The position numbers and the translations under genes were made by a program. Positions 45,250-51,356 of a DNA stretch of 64,000 nt are shown piece after piece. Source of the stretch: Paraflavitalea pollutisoli. Lineage in GTDB: Bacteria; Bacteroidota; Bacteroidia; Chitinophagales; Chitinophagaceae. The notes under the pieces were generated by a model. That model was given only the letters and a program-made list of their open reading frames with translations, had not been told where the DNA came from and ran no database searches. Location of the stretch: the NCBI RefSeq assembly GCF_029360705.1, contig NZ_JARKMX010000008.1, forward strand, positions 3,727,479 through 3,791,478, read 5' to 3'. Within the stretch, counting starts at the first letter, position 1, and every line of letters starts with the position of its first letter.

Positions 45250-46413
45250 TTAATATTTTGACAGTTCGGGACGAACCTCGTCAATATAGCCAAGGATGCC
45301 CCCTTTCAGGTTGTACAGATTGGTGAATCCGAATTTCTCCTCCAGCTCTCGAATGGCTTTGGCACTACGGCCACCCATCTTACAATGCACCACCACCTTT
45401 ACATCGCGGCTGAATTTATCGGCGTTGGCAGCGACTGTACCCAGTGGGATCAGTTCGGCCCCAATGTTGACGAAATCATATTCATCCTGTTCCCGTACAT
45501 CCACCAGCTGAAACGCTTCTCCCTTCACCTGCCAATCATACAGGTCACGGGCAGATATTTCCTTCACGGGCTTCTCAACAGCCTTCATACCGCAAAATTG
45601 TTCATAATCGATCAACGCCGTGATCGTAGGATTTTTACCGTTCAGCGGGTTGTCTTCGCGGCGTGAAATATTGAACGTACGGCTCTCGAAATTGAGCGCG
45701 TCGAACATGTAAAAACGCCCCACCAGCGGCTCTCCCACCCCCGTGATCACTTTGATCACCTCCAGCGCCTGCAGACTGCCAATGATACCGGGCAGTACAC
45801 CCAATACCCCACCTTCAGCACAACTGGGCACAAGACCCGGCGGTGGAGGTGTTGGATACAGGTCGCGGTAGTTAGGGCCTACCACTCCATCTTTATTGGT
45901 ATAGTTGAATACCGAAACCTGGCCCTCGAATTGGAAAATAGAGGCATAAATATTGGGCTTACCGAGTAGTACCGCAGCATCATTGACCAGGTAACGGGTA
46001 GGAAAATTATCCGTACCATCGGCTACCAGGTCATAGTCCTTCAGAATATCCAGCGCGTTCTTCGAGGTAAGTTGTGTATTGTGTAAAATGATATGGATAT
46101 GCGGATTGAGTGCCTGTAACCGTGCCTTGGCGGCCTCTACCTTGGGCGTACCGACAGCTTCCACACCAAACAGGATCTGGCGTTGCAGGTTGCTGTCATC
46201 CACCACATCAAAATCCACAATACCTATAGTACCAACGCCTGCCGCAGCCAGGTACAGCAAGGCCGGACTGCCCAGACCTCCGGAACCAACGATCAATACT
46301 TTGGCAGCTTTCAGCTTCTGCTGGGCCTCCAGGCCAAATTCAGGAATGATGATATGCCTGTTGTAACGGGCCAGTTCTTCTTTGGAAAAGGTTATGTTGG
46401 AATGATTACTCAT
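45250..46413 (-). CDS. moeB: E1-like adenylyltransferase (ThiF/MoeB) with C-terminal rhodanese
   Basis: 387-aa two-domain protein. Residues about 1-260 are a ThiF/MoeB/HesA fold: VLIVGSGGLGSPALLYLAAAGV (ATP loop), DFDVVDDSNLQRQILF (Asp and Arg for adenylation), DGTDNFPTRYLVND. Residues about 285-387 are a rhodanese with active-site HCKMGGRSAKAI. Such fusions activate the C-terminal Gly-Gly of a ubiquitin-like sulfur carrier and load sulfur as thiocarboxylate. The gene follows the carrier gene at 46485 by 71 bp, so its substrate is most likely that carrier. Mycobacterium uses the comparable MoeZ with CysO. The usual CxxC zinc sites of E. coli MoeB appear reduced (only PSCAEGG is evident). Confidence 0.9.
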   Translation of the reverse strand: MSNHSNITFSKEELARYNRHIIIPEFGLEAQQKLKAAKVLIVGSGGLGSPALLYLAAAGVGTIGIVDFDVVDDSNLQRQILFGVEAVGTPKVEAAKARLQALNPHIHIILHNTQLTSKNALDILKDYDLVADGTDNFPTRYLVNDAAVLLGKPNIYASIFQFEGQVSVFNYTNKDGVVGPNYRDLYPTPPPPGLVPSCAEGGVLGVLPGIIGSLQALEVIKVITGVGEPLVGRFYMFDALNFESRTFNISRREDNPLNGKNPTITALIDYEQFCGMKAVEKPVKEISARDLYDWQVKGEAFQLVDVREQDEYDFVNIGAELIPLGTVAANADKFSRDVKVVVHCKMGGRSAKAIRELEEKFGFTNLYNLKGGILGYIDEVRPELSKY

Positions 46414-46484
46414 TGTTGTTTGATTGAATGATGATTAAAAGCAGGTGTGGCTGCCACAGGGTAAAGACCAGGTTGACCTTAATC

Positions 46485-46763
46485 TCAGGCAAACCCTCCT
46501 GCAATGGCAGGCACAATGCTGATTACAGTATCGGTCTGCACAGGCGTCTTACCTTGTTGCAGGTCACGGATATCATCGTTTCCGACAAAGATGTTGACAA
46601 ATGACCGGATCTGCCCCTTGTCGTCCAGCAAATGCTTCTTCAGGTCAGGAAAGTTAAGGGTTAATTCATGCACGGTATTTTCGATCGTATCTGCCTTGAT
46701 ATCCAGGCGGGCCGTGTTGTTGGTAAACTTACGCAATGGTGTGGGAATGATTACTGTTGCCAT
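46485..46763 (-). CDS. CysO-like sulfur-carrier protein with C-terminal GGFA
   Basis: 92-aa ubiquitin-fold protein of the MoaD/ThiS/CysO group. The N-terminal VIIPTPLRKFTNN and the DDIRDLQQGKTPVQTDTVIS core match CysO-type carriers. The C-terminus reads VPAIAGGFA: the active Gly-Gly (89-90) is followed by Phe-Ala, so the dipeptide must be removed before adenylation. The adjacent JAMM protease gene is the obvious candidate, as QbsD trims QbsE in Pseudomonas. Context (E1-like plus rhodanese, Mec, CysM) points to protein-bound sulfide for cysteine synthesis rather than molybdopterin or thiamin. Confidence 0.9.
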   Translation of the reverse strand: MATVIIPTPLRKFTNNTARLDIKADTIENTVHELTLNFPDLKKHLLDDKGQIRSFVNIFVGNDDIRDLQQGKTPVQTDTVISIVPAIAGGFA

Positions 46764-46828
46764 GATCGTTGATGTTGTATTTGTTGTGTAAAATAGATGA
46801 ATCGGATACTGTTTAATGGCTAACGGGG

Positions 46829-47275
46829 TTATGCATTTTCAGCGCCCGTCGACAGCACAGGCACTGCTACCGATTCCTCTTCAAACTGTGCCTCATCGTT
46901 CAATCTCCAGGAACGCACCGGCCCCACCTTTCTTTCCAGCACAGAAACGATGACATAAGAGAAAAAAGGTTGTGCCGCTATGCGGTCATGTTCCGACGGG
47001 ATGGCTGGATGATTGGGATGCGAATGGTAAACACCCAGCAAGGTCAATCCGCTTTCCTCGGCGAATTGTTCCGCCTGGATATAGTCCAACGGCGCAATGA
47101 CGAAACGCCGGCGCTTATCGCCTTCCTTTGCATTATTGACTACCCGGATGGTAGTGATCGTCCGGTGTCCCTCACCGTCTTCCTGCCCAAATAGAAAGCC
47201 GCAGCATTCATCGGGGAAAGCTTGTACGGCATCTGCTAGCATAAGTTCCCGGGCTGTAGATTGAATAAGGATCAT
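46829..47275 (-). CDS. mec: JAMM/MPN+ metalloprotease, Mec-like
   Basis: 148-aa zinc metalloprotease of the M67 family. The JAMM residues are present: Glu23 in PDECCGF, His84 and His86 in YHSHPNHPAIPSEHD, Asp97 at its end. In Mycobacterium the Mec protein releases cysteine from the CysO-cysteine adduct. Here it may also trim the Phe-Ala tail of the neighbouring carrier. Its start codon overlaps the cysM stop by 4 bp (47272-47275), so the two are translationally coupled; the carrier gene follows after 65 bp. Confidence 0.9.
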   Translation of the reverse strand: MILIQSTARELMLADAVQAFPDECCGFLFGQEDGEGHRTITTIRVVNNAKEGDKRRRFVIAPLDYIQAEQFAEESGLTLLGVYHSHPNHPAIPSEHDRIAAQPFFSYVIVSVLERKVGPVRSWRLNDEAQFEEESVAVPVLSTGAENA

Positions 47276-48216
47276 CGCTGTATGAGTTTATTGATTACTT
47301 CGCTGTATTTATCGGCATTGTCAGGAAATACGGTTACTACTGTACCGGCGTCCAGTCGCTGGGCTACGCGGATAGCACCCGCCAGGTTGGCGGCAGCTGA
47401 TGGGCTGAGTAACAATCCTTCATACTGGTAGGCCGCCTTTAAAATTTCGTAGGCTTCTTCTGTACCTACTTCCAGGTTTTCGTCGGCTACGGTAGTATCG
47501 TAAATCGTAGGCACCACCGCAGTTTCCATATGCTTCCACCCTTCCATACCATGCAGCGGATTATCCGGTTGCAAAGAAATGAGCTGTACATCCGGAACCA
47601 GTTCGCGCAAACGACGGCCCGTACCGACGAAGGTGCCACTGGTGCCCAGGCCCGTTACAAAATGAGTAATGCCGGGAAGATCCTGAACAACTTCCAGCGC
47701 CGTACCATGGTAGTGAGCTTTCCAGTTGTTGTCATTCTTGTATTGATCGGCGTAGAAAAATTGATCAGGATGCTTAAGGGCAAGTTCTTTGGCAACGGCC
47801 TGGGCGCCATCTGTACCTTCGTACTTCGAGGTATAAATGATAGTTGCCCCTAATGACTGCAGGATCTCTTTTCTTTCTTTGGAAGCATTTTCAGGAAGAC
47901 ACAGTGTAACCGGTACCTGTAGCTGATGACCAACAGCCGCATAAGCGATGCCTGTATTTCCACTGGTAGCATCCAACAGCACTTTATTCCTGGTCAATTG
48001 CCCCCGCTCGATCGCCGACCTGAAAATATTATAACCGGCGCGGGCTTTCACGCTGCCCGATAACTGCAGCCATTCCTGCTTGGCGTAAATGGCAACGTTG
48101 GGCTTACTGAACAATTTGGTTATCCTATATAAAGGTGTGTTGCCTATCTGGTTACCCAGCAAACGGGTGCTGTCCAGCAATTGCTCATCTACGGGGTCAG
48201 CGATCAGGTCTTGCAT
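47272..48216 (-). CDS. cysM: Cysteine synthase, CysM type
   Basis: 314-aa fold-type II PLP enzyme. The PLP lysine lies in QLSGSVKARAGYNIF, then DATSGNTGIAYAAVG (substrate loop) and FVTGLGTSGTFVGTGR (phosphate loop). The ATG at 48216 (MQDLIADP) is preferred over an open frame to 48279 that would run into the attenuator terminator. In the cluster with Mec, CysO-like carrier and MoeB-rhodanese it is expected to accept sulfur from the carrier thiocarboxylate, with O-phosphoserine or O-acetylserine as co-substrate; which one cannot be read from the sequence. Preceded by a poly-Cys leader and terminator. Confidence 0.92.
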   Translation of the reverse strand: MQDLIADPVDEQLLDSTRLLGNQIGNTPLYRITKLFSKPNVAIYAKQEWLQLSGSVKARAGYNIFRSAIERGQLTRNKVLLDATSGNTGIAYAAVGHQLQVPVTLCLPENASKERKEILQSLGATIIYTSKYEGTDGAQAVAKELALKHPDQFFYADQYKNDNNWKAHYHGTALEVVQDLPGITHFVTGLGTSGTFVGTGRRLRELVPDVQLISLQPDNPLHGMEGWKHMETAVVPTIYDTTVADENLEVGTEEAYEILKAAYQYEGLLLSPSAAANLAGAIRVAQRLDAGTVVTVFPDNADKYSEVINKLIQR

Positions 48217-48263
48217 CGGCTCTGTGTTAAAGTTAGTTTTTGAATAGGTTGACTGATATAGAC

Positions 48264-48293
48264 ATAAAAAAAGCCCCACACAACGGTGGAGCT
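48264..48293 (-). terminator. Attenuator terminator upstream of cysM
   Basis: Minus strand: 8-bp stem AGCTCCAC / GTGGGGCT (48286-48293 and 48272-48279, one G-U) with a CGTTGT loop and a run of seven Ts. It lies 32 bp after the poly-Cys leader stop and about 50 bp before the cysM ATG. Its 5' arm (CUCCACC) can alternatively pair with GGUGGG at 48341-48346 in the leader, a six-pair candidate antiterminator. Confidence 0.88.
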
Positions 48294-48324
48294 CACAATA
48301 TGTTGAATAATAGATATTCAGCTG

Positions 48325-48411
48325 CTACCCATGGCTATCGCCCACCCCAATAACCCTGGTGTGTTGACAACAACAGCAACAACAATTTTTATGTGGGTTT
48401 TGAAATGTCAT
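48325..48411 (-). CDS. Poly-cysteine leader peptide of the cysM operon
   Basis: 28-aa ORF with an ATG start: MTFQNPHKN, then six consecutive Cys codons (TGT TGT TGC TGT TGT TGT), then QHTRVIGVGDSHG and stop. It lies 108 bp before the cysM ATG, about 19 nt after the predicted transcription start of the TATATTTG element at 48436-48443, and before a strong intrinsic terminator. This is the layout expected for attenuation sensing charged Cys-tRNA. Poly-Cys leader ORFs acting as cysteine-responsive attenuators have been described in mycobacteria; I know of no description in Bacteroidota. The ORF, Cys run and terminator are seen directly; regulation is inferred. Confidence 0.88.
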   Translation of the reverse strand: MTFQNPHKNCCCCCCQHTRVIGVGDSHG

Positions 48412-48435
48412 GATGGGCAAATCCATATAGGCTTA

Positions 48436-48443
48436 CAAATATA
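48436..48443 (-). promoter_or_regulatory. Candidate -7 element of the cysM operon
   Basis: Minus strand TATATTTG, exact TAnnTTTG match, placing the transcript start near 48430, just ahead of the leader ATG at 48411. No clear -33 TTTG at 19 bp. Confidence 0.55.
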
Positions 48444-48576
48444 AAGGGATTTTTCCGATAATTCCTACAGACAATGTAGACTAATTTGTTAAAACGCCCG
48501 CCCAGGCCGGTAAAGCTGCGATTGGCTGCACCAGATCGCAGCAATACGGCTGACAGGCGCCGTAACACATCAAAAA

Positions 48577-48620
48577 CATATAGAGCACATAAGGAAGACA
48601 TATAGAGTACATATAGAGAC
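48577..48620. repeat. Tandem 11-bp repeats, array A (CATATAGAGNN)
   Basis: Four head-to-tail 11-mers: CATATAGAGCA, CATAAGGAAGA (degenerate), CATATAGAGTA and CATATAGAGAC, in the gap between the cysM promoter and the DNA glycosylase gene. The unit is not a multiple of three and no ORF is implied. Confidence 0.85.
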
Positions 48621-48741
48621 GTCCGCTTATGGTACGCAGTAGGATGGTAGCAGGTTGCTGCATAGGTTCTTAACGCCCCTTCCGTACCGGAGCCATACCC
48701 TATTCGTATCCTATTAGTCACCTGCCGTAACGGGTAACAAA

Positions 48742-48796
48742 GTTATAGAGACCTTATAGAGAGCTTATAGCAGCGTTATAGAGAGGTTATAGAGAG
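48742..48796. repeat. Tandem 11-bp repeats, array B (NTTATAGAGAN)
   Basis: Five head-to-tail 11-mers: GTTATAGAGAC, CTTATAGAGAG, CTTATAGCAGC, GTTATAGAGAG, GTTATAGAGAG. Shares the TATAGAG core with array A at 48577-48620, and the start-to-start distance of the arrays (165 bp) is 15 units. Function unknown. Confidence 0.88.
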
Positions 48797-48939
48797 AACC
48801 GCTAGAGCGTCAGGCAAGGTATAGGTAAGGGGTAAGCAGGGGGCAGTCGATAGCACACCGCAACCCAGCCAGCCAGCCCCCCTGCATCGAAAGAGCCTTT
48901 GCCGCAAGATTCAGGTGGGGCCGTATATATAAGGCGTCT

Positions 48940-48947
48940 TACATTTG
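48940..48947 (+). promoter_or_regulatory. Possible -7 element directly before the glycosylase ATG
   Basis: TACATTTG matches TAnnTTTG. It ends 4 bp before the ATG at 48952, so if used the mRNA would be nearly leaderless. No -33 match; low confidence. Confidence 0.3.
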
Positions 48948-48951
48948 GCCC

Positions 48952-49845
48952 ATGAAGCGTATCCTGATTCCCAGGCCCAACCTGTTCAGCTTTGACGAAT
49001 GCCTGTGGTTCCTGAACCGGAACTACGATGATTGCCTGCATGTCATAGAACCGGGTAAGATACATAAGGCGATCTGTATCAACGGACAGAACATAGCCTT
49101 CACCCTGCAGGCCGATGAACGGCACCTCCTGTTGCACCTGGGAGATCAGCAGCTATCTCCTCAACAAGAGCAGGCACTGGAACGCTATATCAGCGATTGG
49201 TTTGACCTCGACCGGGACATCACGCCGTTCTACAAACTGCTCGCCAAACACAAACAACTGGCCTACATGGCCACCGACTATGCCGGCTTTCGCCTGATCG
49301 GTATACACGATCTCTTCGAAGCATTGTGCTGGAGCATTATCGGCCAGCAGATCAACCTCACATTCGCCTATATCCTCAAAAGAAGACTGGTGGAACAATA
49401 TGGTACCCCGATATCGTTCAACGATCATACCCTCCACATCTTCCCGGCACCTGAGGTATTGCAATCAGTCAGCATGGAAGCACTGCGCGCGCTGCAATTT
49501 TCTACCCGCAAAGCAGAATACCTGTTATCCATCGCAAGTCTGTTCGCAGCTGGCACCTTGAGCAAAGAACGCCTGCAGCAATGCAGCAGTTACAACGAAC
49601 AGGTCGCTCAACTAACAGCCGTCCGTGGCATCGGGGTCTGGACGGCTAATTATGCGATCATGAAATCGCTGAAGCAGTTGCAGGCGATACCGATGGGAGA
49701 CGTGGGGCTGCTGAATGCCCTCACCAATCACCAGTTGATCAAAGACCGCCAGGACCATACCCGCATCGACAAATTGTTCAAACAGTTCAAGGGCTGGGAA
49801 AGCTACCTGGTATTCTACCTGTGGCGAAGCCTGAGCCATGCCTGA
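48952..49845 (+). CDS. DNA-3-methyladenine glycosylase (AlkA-like)
   Basis: 297-aa base-excision repair glycosylase of the HhH-GPD superfamily. The helix-hairpin-helix with Gly/Pro-rich loop and catalytic Asp is seen as LTAVRGIGVWTANYAIMKSL followed by QAIPMGDVGLLNAL (Asp). An upstream segment ALCWSIIGQQINLTFAYILK is the AlkA core helix pair. The first 110 residues would form the AlkA-type N-terminal domain. No Ada domain is fused. Start ATG at 48952. Confidence 0.88.
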   Translation: MKRILIPRPNLFSFDECLWFLNRNYDDCLHVIEPGKIHKAICINGQNIAFTLQADERHLLLHLGDQQLSPQQEQALERYISDWFDLDRDITPFYKLLAKHKQLAYMATDYAGFRLIGIHDLFEALCWSIIGQQINLTFAYILKRRLVEQYGTPISFNDHTLHIFPAPEVLQSVSMEALRALQFSTRKAEYLLSIASLFAAGTLSKERLQQCSSYNEQVAQLTAVRGIGVWTANYAIMKSLKQLQAIPMGDVGLLNALTNHQLIKDRQDHTRIDKLFKQFKGWESYLVFYLWRSLSHA

Positions 49846-49890
49846 GATCAATAAGAACATGGGCAGGCTGCTGTACCCCAACATACAAAA

Positions 49891-49915
49891 CGGGCGCCCT
49901 TATCAGGAGCGCCCG
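49891..49915 (-). terminator. Terminator after the T9SS OmpA gene
   Basis: Perfect 7-bp GC-rich stem CGGGCGC / GCGCCCG, extended by CC/GG, followed on the minus strand by TTTTG. It lies between converging genes and may also stop the glycosylase transcript. Confidence 0.75.
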
Positions 49916-49940
49916 CTTGATTATACAGTGTGCGAACGTG

Positions 49941-51356
49941 TTAATCTTTGTCGTGGATCACAACTTCAACGCGTCGGTTGAGCCATGCATGGGCCGGTGT
50001 ATTTTCCGCTACAGGATATTCTTTACCATAGTAGCTGACGATCAACCTTTCGGCTGCAATGCCCCGGCTCGTCATATAATTGAATGCCATTTGTGCACGT
50101 CTCATCGAAAGGAAGTTATTGTATTCTGTAGATCCCACGTTATCCGTATACCCCTTGATGTCTACCACCTTAGTCGGGTCATTTTTCAGTTGGGTGATCA
50201 CCTTGTCGATCGTGCCAAATGCCCGCGAGGTCAGTGAAAAGTCTTTGTAGTAGAAGTATACGGTGAATTTAATCACTTGTTTACCGTTGATGGTATCCAC
50301 CTGGTAATCGATCAGATCAAAGGCCTGGGCTGTTTTACCACCCGCCAGAGAATCTCCGAAGTCGCTCTGACCATCTTCCCGGTTGTTGCTCCAGTCACTA
50401 TTCTTGTTTTTACCACTGGGTAATTTGCTGGCATTACCTTGCCCATTTTTGCCCTGCCCAATCTTACCCTGGCTGTTGTTGCCCTGGCTTCCCTGACCAC
50501 CCTGGCTGCCATCTCCACCATTTTCATCCACACCGGCGTTACCATTGTTATGGCCTCCCGCCTCGGTGCCAGTGGCGCCATTGTTGATACCACCATTCGC
50601 CCCTTGCTGCGCCTTCAGCAATGAATCTACATTCACATTATAGAAGTAGTTGTTAATAATCGTCGCTTTGGAGCTATCCGGCTTTTTCGCCAGACTATCG
50701 GCCAGTTTCATCGAATCAAGAGCCGCCTGTTCAGCCGCTGCCTTATCCTTGTCCGATTTCTTCTTTTTCTTGTTGTTGATACCTATATACATACCCACAG
50801 AATACATCAGGGTATTAGCCATATTCTTGCTGACCGAATAGCCATAAGCTGCCTGGCCCATGATCATGATCTTCTTGGAAGTGAACTTCAAACCCACGCC
50901 CATCGGCGCACTGGTATAAGAAGAATCATTGATCAGGTTATTGATGCCCGCCGAAATGAAGGGCTGCAGCCGGTAACGATGGCTCAACAAATGATAGTAC
51001 AAGGTAGCATTGAGCAGGTTATAAGTCTCCTTCTTGGTAGTACTGATCAACCGGTCTTTGCTGGTAACATGACCATATGCCAGGCCAATATCTACACTGA
51101 AAGACAGCCGGCCGACTATATTCTTGTAGGCAGACGCCGCAAAGGATGCATTGATCTTATCCATGATCGGCAGCTCATTGGCGTTGCTGACAAAACCATG
51201 TTTGTTTTTCTCCAGCATACCAAATTCCTGGATCTGGAATTTAGTGAGGGGTGAAATAAACCATCTGTTATCCCATTCCCTCGCCACCTCCTGTGCGTGG
51301 ATGGCTTTTGCGGCCAGCACCAGGCACACCGCCAAACAGACTAATACCTTTTTCAT
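49941..51356 (-). CDS. OmpA-family protein of the T9SS adhesin locus
   Basis: 471 aa. Signal peptide MKKVLVCLAVCLVLAAKAIHA; about 25-195 is a beta-barrel-like domain; then a Lys/Ala-rich segment and a low-complexity Gly/Asn/Gln linker (about 255-320, repeats such as GSQGGQGSQGNNSQGK); about 345-471 is an OmpA peptidoglycan-binding domain with VDIKGYTDNVGSTEYNNFLSMRRA. It lies 47 bp after a PorP/SprF gene and downstream of a giant adhesin; adhesin, PorP/SprF and OmpA-type genes form a common Bacteroidota unit in which the barrel tethers the type IX-secreted adhesin at the surface. Confidence 0.85.
   Translation of the reverse strand: MKKVLVCLAVCLVLAAKAIHAQEVAREWDNRWFISPLTKFQIQEFGMLEKNKHGFVSNANELPIMDKINASFAASAYKNIVGRLSFSVDIGLAYGHVTSKDRLISTTKKETYNLLNATLYYHLLSHRYRLQPFISAGINNLINDSSYTSAPMGVGLKFTSKKIMIMGQAAYGYSVSKNMANTLMYSVGMYIGINNKKKKKSDKDKAAAEQAALDSMKLADSLAKKPDSSKATIINNYFYNVNVDSLLKAQQGANGGINNGATGTEAGGHNNGNAGVDENGGDGSQGGQGSQGNNSQGKIGQGKNGQGNASKLPSGKNKNSDWSNNREDGQSDFGDSLAGGKTAQAFDLIDYQVDTINGKQVIKFTVYFYYKDFSLTSRAFGTIDKVITQLKNDPTKVVDIKGYTDNVGSTEYNNFLSMRRAQMAFNYMTSRGIAAERLIVSYYGKEYPVAENTPAHAWLNRRVEVVIHDKD

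Follow-up and report, generated by a model that had tools for sequence, protein, structure and literature searches.

The classical leader-peptide attenuators are those of the trp, his and ilv operons. Leaders carrying runs of Cys codons have been described in Mycobacterium, Propionibacterium acnes and Bifidobacterium longum, and there are clues for leader-peptide attenuation in Flavobacterium, as far as the matching passages of these papers go (PMC4833913, PMC8632094, PMC9723704, PMC7366714, PMC13236596, PMC1262725, PMC9094748, PMC2965389, PMC4633059, PMC8079986). The original prediction for the locus treated here had stated that poly-Cys leaders are described in mycobacteria; those passages bear this out and add other Actinobacteria. 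The mycobacterial examples are leaderless short ORFs, cysteine-responsive attenuators by the title of the primary report (Canestrari et al., 2020, via PMC13236596, PMC9094748, PMC4633059). Seliverstov et al. (2005) reported no conserved terminator hairpin in Mycobacterium, in the passages available (PMC1262725). Within Bacteroidota, Flavobacterium psychrophilum shows hints of leader-peptide attenuation ahead of operons for amino acid biosynthesis (PMC9723704). The statement that no Cys leader was known in Bacteroidota or on a cysM-cysO operon holds provisionally, there being none among the matches listed from the open-access literature.

The window analyzed here is a stretch of 64,000 nucleotides from Paraflavitalea pollutisoli. 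Between 48443 and 48216 on its minus strand are found, in this order, a TATATTTG box, a 28-codon ORF, a hairpin with a T-run, and the ATG of cysM. The box (48436..48443, minus strand) lies just upstream of the leader, as had been predicted; by sequence it matches TAnnTTTG, which we take to be the Bacteroidota -7 box, and its end is 24 nt from the leader ATG. The ORF itself (MTFQNPHKNCCCCCCQHTRVIGVGDSHG; 48325..48411, minus strand) also proved to be as first described, extending from an ATG at 48411 to a TAG stop at 48327-48325 and including six consecutive Cys codons (TGT TGT TGC TGT TGT TGT; 48367..48384, minus strand), presumably the sensing codons, with 13 codons between this run and the stop. 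A second in-frame ATG at 48426 would give a 33-codon leader; genus relatives retain the 48411 start and not the 48426 start, and in L005-L008 the distance from the start codon to the Cys run is that of the window. GGTGGG lies within the ORF at 48346-48341, as part of a putative antiterminator strand, TTGGGGTGGG (48341..48350, minus strand), that can pair with the 5′ arm of a predicted intrinsic terminator (48264..48294, minus strand). The terminator is composed of a 9-bp hairpin at 48294-48271, GAGCTCCACC-GTTGTG-TGGGGCTT, with the 5′ arm CTCCACC at 48291-48285, followed by the T-run. This hairpin has the most pairs of three terminator-like sites in 46500-49500, where 2.2 would arise by chance and the count alone is uninformative. 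The gap between leader stop and hairpin measures 30 nt and not the 32 bp claimed. Ahead of the Cys run lies a possible protector strand (48391..48420, minus strand; GCCCATCA at 48418-48411, with AAACCCA further on); it appears in the MFE fold, where its pairing with the antiterminator strand would put the Cys codons in a loop.

The gene that begins at the end of this region, cysM (47272..48216, minus strand), encodes a member of the PLP-dependent cysteine synthase family (TIGR01138, E 2.2e-80, under cut-off), with PDB matches that include 3dki (cysteine synthase B / O-phosphoserine sulfhydrylase) and 3dwg. It is followed on the same strand by a mec-like JAMM/MPN protease (46829..47275; NF041370 desampylase under cut-off; 2kcq, Mov34/MPN/PAD-1, E 1.2e-22), a cysO-like sulfur carrier with a C-terminal GGFA (46485..46763; 3dwg_C, E 8.6e-10; SAMP1 and MoaD models under cut-off), and a moeZ/moeB-like adenylyltransferase with a rhodanese-like C-terminus (45250..46413; PRK07878 MoeZ, E 9.6e-140, under cut-off), whose product scores above the cut-off of PRK05690 MoeB. 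The best solved relative of the carrier is chain C of 3dwg, of which chain A is cysteine synthase B. Because the NCBIfam matches to CysM, Mec, CysO and MoeZ fall under their curated cut-offs, these names rest on family and gene order: predicted cysM, JAMM protease, ubiquitin-like carrier and E1/rhodanese genes are adjacent on one strand, as in the mycobacterial-type CysM/CysO/Mec pathway. The GGFA ending leaves the carrier with two residues past Gly-Gly that would have to go before activation, and perhaps the neighboring JAMM protease trims them.

Relatives of CysM were assembled as 41 loci from named genome contigs, the closest of them in Paraflavitalea, Niastella and Pseudobacter, with further cysM matches, at the E-values applied, from overlapping genome samples: all 5 genomes of the genus, 25 of 294 family genomes, 60 of 298 order genomes and 27 of 395 phylum genomes. 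Removal of 15 loci whose final 250 upstream nt were identical to those of another locus, and of 5 that had less than 100 nt upstream, reduced 146 loci to 126; leaving out 11 records from other phyla and one locus with less than 300 nt upstream gave 114 Bacteroidota loci, among which near-identical upstreams were retained. A Cys-run ORF, defined by three consecutive Cys or by two Cys pairs no more than 2 residues apart, was present in 95 of the 126 loci. Among the 114 Bacteroidota loci, a run lay within 450 nt upstream of cysM in 94, with at least four consecutive Cys in 77 and at least five in 69; the reverse complement gave a run in 6 of 114 and four or more in a row in one, and shuffled sequence gave 1.1% and 0%, respectively. 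When one locus was kept per CysM cluster, the run was present in 82 of 100 (<90% identity), 53 of 64 (<75%) and 18 of 25 (<65%), so leader presence drops somewhat with distance. The 94 runs are written in 40 distinct nucleotide strings (388 TGT and 114 TGC codons), which indicates that the codon meaning is kept and not the DNA. The longest run in a leader is anywhere between 2-3 and 8 Cys long, the residues around it vary strongly between lineages, and leader length spans 14 to 34 codons (5th to 95th percentile of the cysM set). Loss of the Cys codons in relatives had been named in advance as grounds for abandoning the idea; they are instead kept, with synonymous turnover, in those 94 of 114 loci. 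In 35 of 94 loci TAnnTTTG occurs no more than 45 nt ahead of the start codon that is closest to the run, compared to an expectation of 0.02 per stretch; in 59 it is missing from that 45-nt stretch.

A hairpin with a T-run was found between the leader run and cysM in 88 of 95 loci, and in 39 of 475 shuffled stretches. Across an alignment of 30 loci, taken from 41 candidates for it, the terminator helix was 99.6% paired. Two of its nine pairs changed on both sides, a number reached in 1 of 500 shuffles; further pair types in the helix of this 30-sequence alignment were not above shuffles (60 of 500). Rfam 15 returned only two matches in window positions 46000-50000 (E 0.25 and 0.44, both under gathering score), and a scan of ten cysM loci returned no family at gathering score. 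In Chitinophagaceae-like loci the hairpin reads AGCTCCACC...GGTGGRGCT, and in the leader about 20 nt separate the last Cys codon from a GGTGG further on. The terminators are lineage-specific, with arms such as CTCCACC, GCCTTTCC, GCCTCACC, CCCTTCCG and TTGCCCCTCC, and leader segments match accordingly. For example, the terminator GGCCUUUCCGAUCC goes with the leader segment GGUCGGAAAGGC in L110, GUUGCCCCUCC with GGGGGGGGCAAC in L119, CCUCACCU with AGGUGAGG in L156, CUCUUGCC with GGCAAGAG in L168, and CCAUCGAU with AUCGAUGG in L172. In L017 and L019, a CTCCCCG terminator arm faces a GGTGGAG leader that is only partly complementary. Leader segment and terminator change together between lineages.

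This joint change was quantified in 87 loci, a set that leaves out L089, where the hairpin precedes the leader stop. The duplex of each leader with its own terminator averaged -14.43 kcal/mol, compared to -11.16 (sd 0.27) with permuted terminators, and none of 10,000 permutations was as good. Own duplexes likewise stood out among 24 divergent representatives (-15.91 vs. -11.38 permuted) and among 11 (-16.19 vs. -11.04), with 0 of 20,000 permutations as good in either case, and 0 of 20,000 permutations matched the own pairing of 51 divergent representatives. Only in 13 of 51, 8 of 24 and 6 of 11 representatives did the own terminator rank first among all partners. Against shuffled terminator arms, the leader paired at P<=0.01 in 25 and at P<=0.05 in 43 of 87 loci, whereas a control segment upstream of the Cys run did so in 1 and 2; terminator arms against shuffled leaders gave 26 and 47 of 87. 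Antiterminator pairing had P>0.5 in 6 of 87 loci. The first GGTGG after the Cys run occupies three frames (25, 9 and 4 loci) and is absent from 56 of 94; its differing frames suggest retention as RNA. One part of the leader thus seems, by comparison of loci, to have been kept by selection on its Cys codons and the other by RNA pairing.

For the window by itself, the evidence is weaker. The original prediction held that GGUGGG within the ORF can pair with CUCCACC of the terminator 5′ arm, and the position of GGTGGG and the pairing over the set of loci agree with it, but in the window alone the pairing was no better than with shuffled leaders (P=0.345), because the leader is G-rich and its shuffles pair equally well. 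The leader fold was modest as well (z=-1.95; 7 of 200 shuffles equally good). With both of these weak, the case depends on the comparative set. The stretch ahead of the Cys run may form a protector pairing, which is weaker than the antiterminator: against shuffled leaders it reached P<=0.01 in 16 of 87 loci and had P>0.5 in 17, with P=0.01 in the window against a shuffled upstream segment. Permutation had made the protector hairpin seem strong, but it does not correct for base composition that the loci share, and shuffles leave the signal moderate.

We consider it very probable (about 0.86), from sequence comparison, that this leader is part of a ribosome-mediated transcription attenuator that senses tRNA-Cys charging and controls the cysM-mec-cysO-moeZ operon. 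Comparison supports the proposal of attenuation tuned to Cys-tRNA through a conserved Cys-run ORF, a terminator, a leader segment that changes jointly with it, and linkage to the operon; from these we infer the promoter, start site, ribosome pausing, Cys-tRNA as the signal, and read-through. RNA polymerase would initiate near 48430 with a ribosome trailing on the 28-codon leader. When Cys-tRNA is plentiful, the ribosome would clear the six Cys codons, reach the stop codon and mask GGTGGG, so that the CTCCACC hairpin could form and transcription would terminate. When Cys-tRNA is scarce, the ribosome would stall on the Cys codons and leave GGTGGG, about 20 nt downstream, free to pair with CTCCACC; no terminator would form and the operon would be transcribed. 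In an untranslated leader, the upstream protector may sequester GGTGGG. A ribosome covers roughly 12-15 nt downstream of its A site. The median spacings over the 87 loci are 18 nt between the Cys run and the pairing segment, 5 nt between that segment and the leader stop, and 29 nt between the stop and the hairpin, so that a ribosome stalled on the Cys codons would leave the segment free and one at the stop would cover it. The model requires transcription-translation coupling in Bacteroidota, a phrase absent among the matches listed from the open literature.

Other explanations must account for the same data. The nascent Cys-run peptide could be a metal or redox sensor that arrests the ribosome, with the same RNA switch downstream, given that cysteine clusters bind metals. 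The authors of the mycobacterial leaders at first left cysteine homeostasis and redox undecided, in the passages available (PMC4633059). However, the flanking residues vary strongly and the longest run ranges from 2-3 to 8, unlike arrest peptides, which have fixed sequence. Moreover, the operon makes cysteine, and cysH operons also bear Cys-run ORFs, and we judge a sensor of this kind improbable. We think about as poorly of a leader acting on translation only, in which stalling or reinitiation would alter access to the cysM start and the hairpin would be an ordinary terminator or a stabilizer. Mycobacterial cysteine genes are cited, in the matching passage, as under translation attenuation (PMC13236596), and five of the loci L111-L116 showed no intrinsic terminator. 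Such a leader would nonetheless need no joint change of leader segment and terminator arm, yet this change is seen, and the hairpin with T-run is present in far more loci than shuffling yields (88/95 vs. 39/475).

Chance, in the form of a trinucleotide repeat next to an unrelated terminator, can be gauged from the genome itself. Its 8.76 Mb contain 36 matches to five consecutive Cys codons, some overlapping, and nearly all of the 30 examined (those outside the window, which has the other 6) are in frames within larger ORFs. A repeat of this origin is nevertheless scarcely credible for a run conserved across families with synonymous changes, 40 distinct strings among 94. One of the genomic matches, L079 (G000:C15:3593626-3593640), is an intergenic short ORF with five terminal Cys plus Leu upstream of a SusC-like gene, where no terminator was seen.

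The attenuator reading also fits the distribution of the leader with respect to its operon. A leader was found in 92 of 105 loci with mec adjoining cysM, the other 13 being without a Cys run, and in none of six loci (L126, L132, L173-L175, L178) with enough downstream sequence and no mec by cysM. These counts leave out L100, L154 and L170 (the last ends 320 nt past the cysM match); with them, 2 of 9 loci without mec by cysM have a leader, namely L100 and L154, whose contigs end 19 and 158 nt past the match. In other phyla a Cys run was found in 1 of 11 records (L044), and L039-L041 (Acidobacteria) and L047 have mec, cysO and moeZ without it. L044, a Gammaproteobacteria MAG, has the same operon, a three-Cys leader and a segment resembling the 3′ arm of the terminator; its place in a Gammaproteobacteria bin would reflect transfer or misbinning.

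Some loci depart from the simple model. In L018 the terminator is retained and the leader is a weaker one, CC...C. In one genus (L157, L162, L164) there is no Cys leader and a different hairpin, common to the three loci and built around TGCTGGTTCG-AAGGATA, lies upstream of cysM; no Rfam match was found there. In another (L111-L116), a single Ser codon after the Cys run ends the leader, and five of the six loci are without a hairpin and T-run, L113 having a weak one. A single mechanism therefore does not fit all loci. Several of L111-L116 show an inverted repeat, TTACCGG...CCGGTAA, past the leader stop.

Cys leaders are not confined to cysM. A covariance model containing only the terminator helix, searched in 294 family genomes, gave 20 strong matches (E<=6.1e-9), all beside cysM. 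The next match, L200 (E 3.3e-7), is a leader, MYNPSSICCCMCCCISLRGRKLYCN, with its own terminator that precedes a gene read as siroheme methyltransferase (a tetrapyrrole methylase) and one for a flavodoxin-domain protein. Of ten weak matches examined as alignments (L200-L209), only L200 qualifies as such a leader; L207 is beside cysM, and the rest look like ordinary terminators. Among the best 12 methyltransferase loci (L210-L221), a Cys run lay within 1500 nt upstream in 11, preceding cysH instead of the methyltransferase in L215 and L221; a run lay upstream in 15 of all 30 such loci scanned, a count that has neither shuffles nor the opposite strand to compare with. A repeated motif like CTACCAAAATTGTAGACTAATG is present at leader and gene start codons in several of L213-L219, possibly a regulator site.

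Among 72 cysH loci, 32 have a Cys-run short ORF no more than 600 nt upstream, compared to 6 of 72 on the opposite strand and 2.1% of shuffles; with L215 and L221 set aside, both picked for their leader, the count is 30 of 70. The run reaches the stop codon in 15 of these 32 leaders, and 6, two of them weak, have a hairpin with a T-run; Rho-dependent and translational control are candidates for this class. The genome studied here has such a leader of its own before cysH (L240:1352-1402, G000:C1), MQYN...YCYNYCCCC-stop, with TATCTTTG upstream and no intrinsic terminator found. It is conserved in all five genus genomes, as MQYN... ending in CCCC or CCCCC, and had been missed by the genome search for five Cys codons because its run is four codons. 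One genome (G290:C1; L085 and L276) has cysM and cysH on the same strand with about 3 kb between them, and each gene is preceded by a Cys leader of its own that is followed by a terminator. A wider cysteine regulon can be proposed with moderate confidence. The fuller version, for which we see the odds as even, is a Bacteroidota cysteine regulon built on leader peptides, in which cysM-cysO attenuators would have had terminator and antiterminator rewritten many times around a kept Cys run, while sulfate-assimilation operons (cysH, siroheme methyltransferase) would largely follow a second design that lacks an intrinsic terminator, places its Cys codons at the stop or close to it and acts through Rho or on translation; one genome, this one included, could have both designs. 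If true, translation trails transcription closely enough in Bacteroidota to gate termination.

Such leaders would bring cysteine-specific leader attenuation into Bacteroidota and into the pathway that makes cysteine on a carrier protein (CysO), and could serve as a natural reporter for transcription-translation coupling in this phylum. The set of loci offers a regulatory RNA with stable logic and mostly changing sequence, and the cysH leaders hint at a cysteine regulon that annotation easily overlooks on account of its short ORFs (in the cysM set, 14 to 34 codons). In the passages available on the mycobacterial ORFs, the likeness lies in clustered Cys codons within a short ORF ahead of cysteine or sulfur genes. 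Those ORFs are leaderless with the Cys cluster at the C-terminus, and one precedes cysA2 (PMC4633059 among the sources), whereas the window leader has 13 codons past its run, an intrinsic terminator, and the antiterminator strand inside the ORF; it thus falls outside a type marked by C-terminal Cys codons and no conserved intrinsic terminator, to which the cysH leader class is closer than the cysM leaders are. Similar in another way is uORFC-8-2, upstream of cysS in Rhodobacterales, a predicted ribosome-mediated attenuator with leader Cys codons and a terminal U-run; as described in the matching passage, it differs in having two Cys codons, a cysteinyl-tRNA synthetase target and a distribution limited to Rhodobacterales (PMC8632094). 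The F. psychrophilum candidates share the phylum, but the section on attenuation in that paper names no cysteine or cysM leader, and cysM is absent from its text (PMC9723704). With the trp, his and ilv attenuators and with ilvB1 of M. tuberculosis, as the latter is presented in the matching passage (PMC13236596), the cysM leaders share regulatory codons, competing antiterminator and terminator, and possibly a protector hairpin. They differ in amino acid and phylum, and in their simple form, where the antiterminator strand lies within the leader ORF. Provisionally, and relative to the open-access literature searched, the mechanism is classical, and what is new is the phylum, the operon and the extent.
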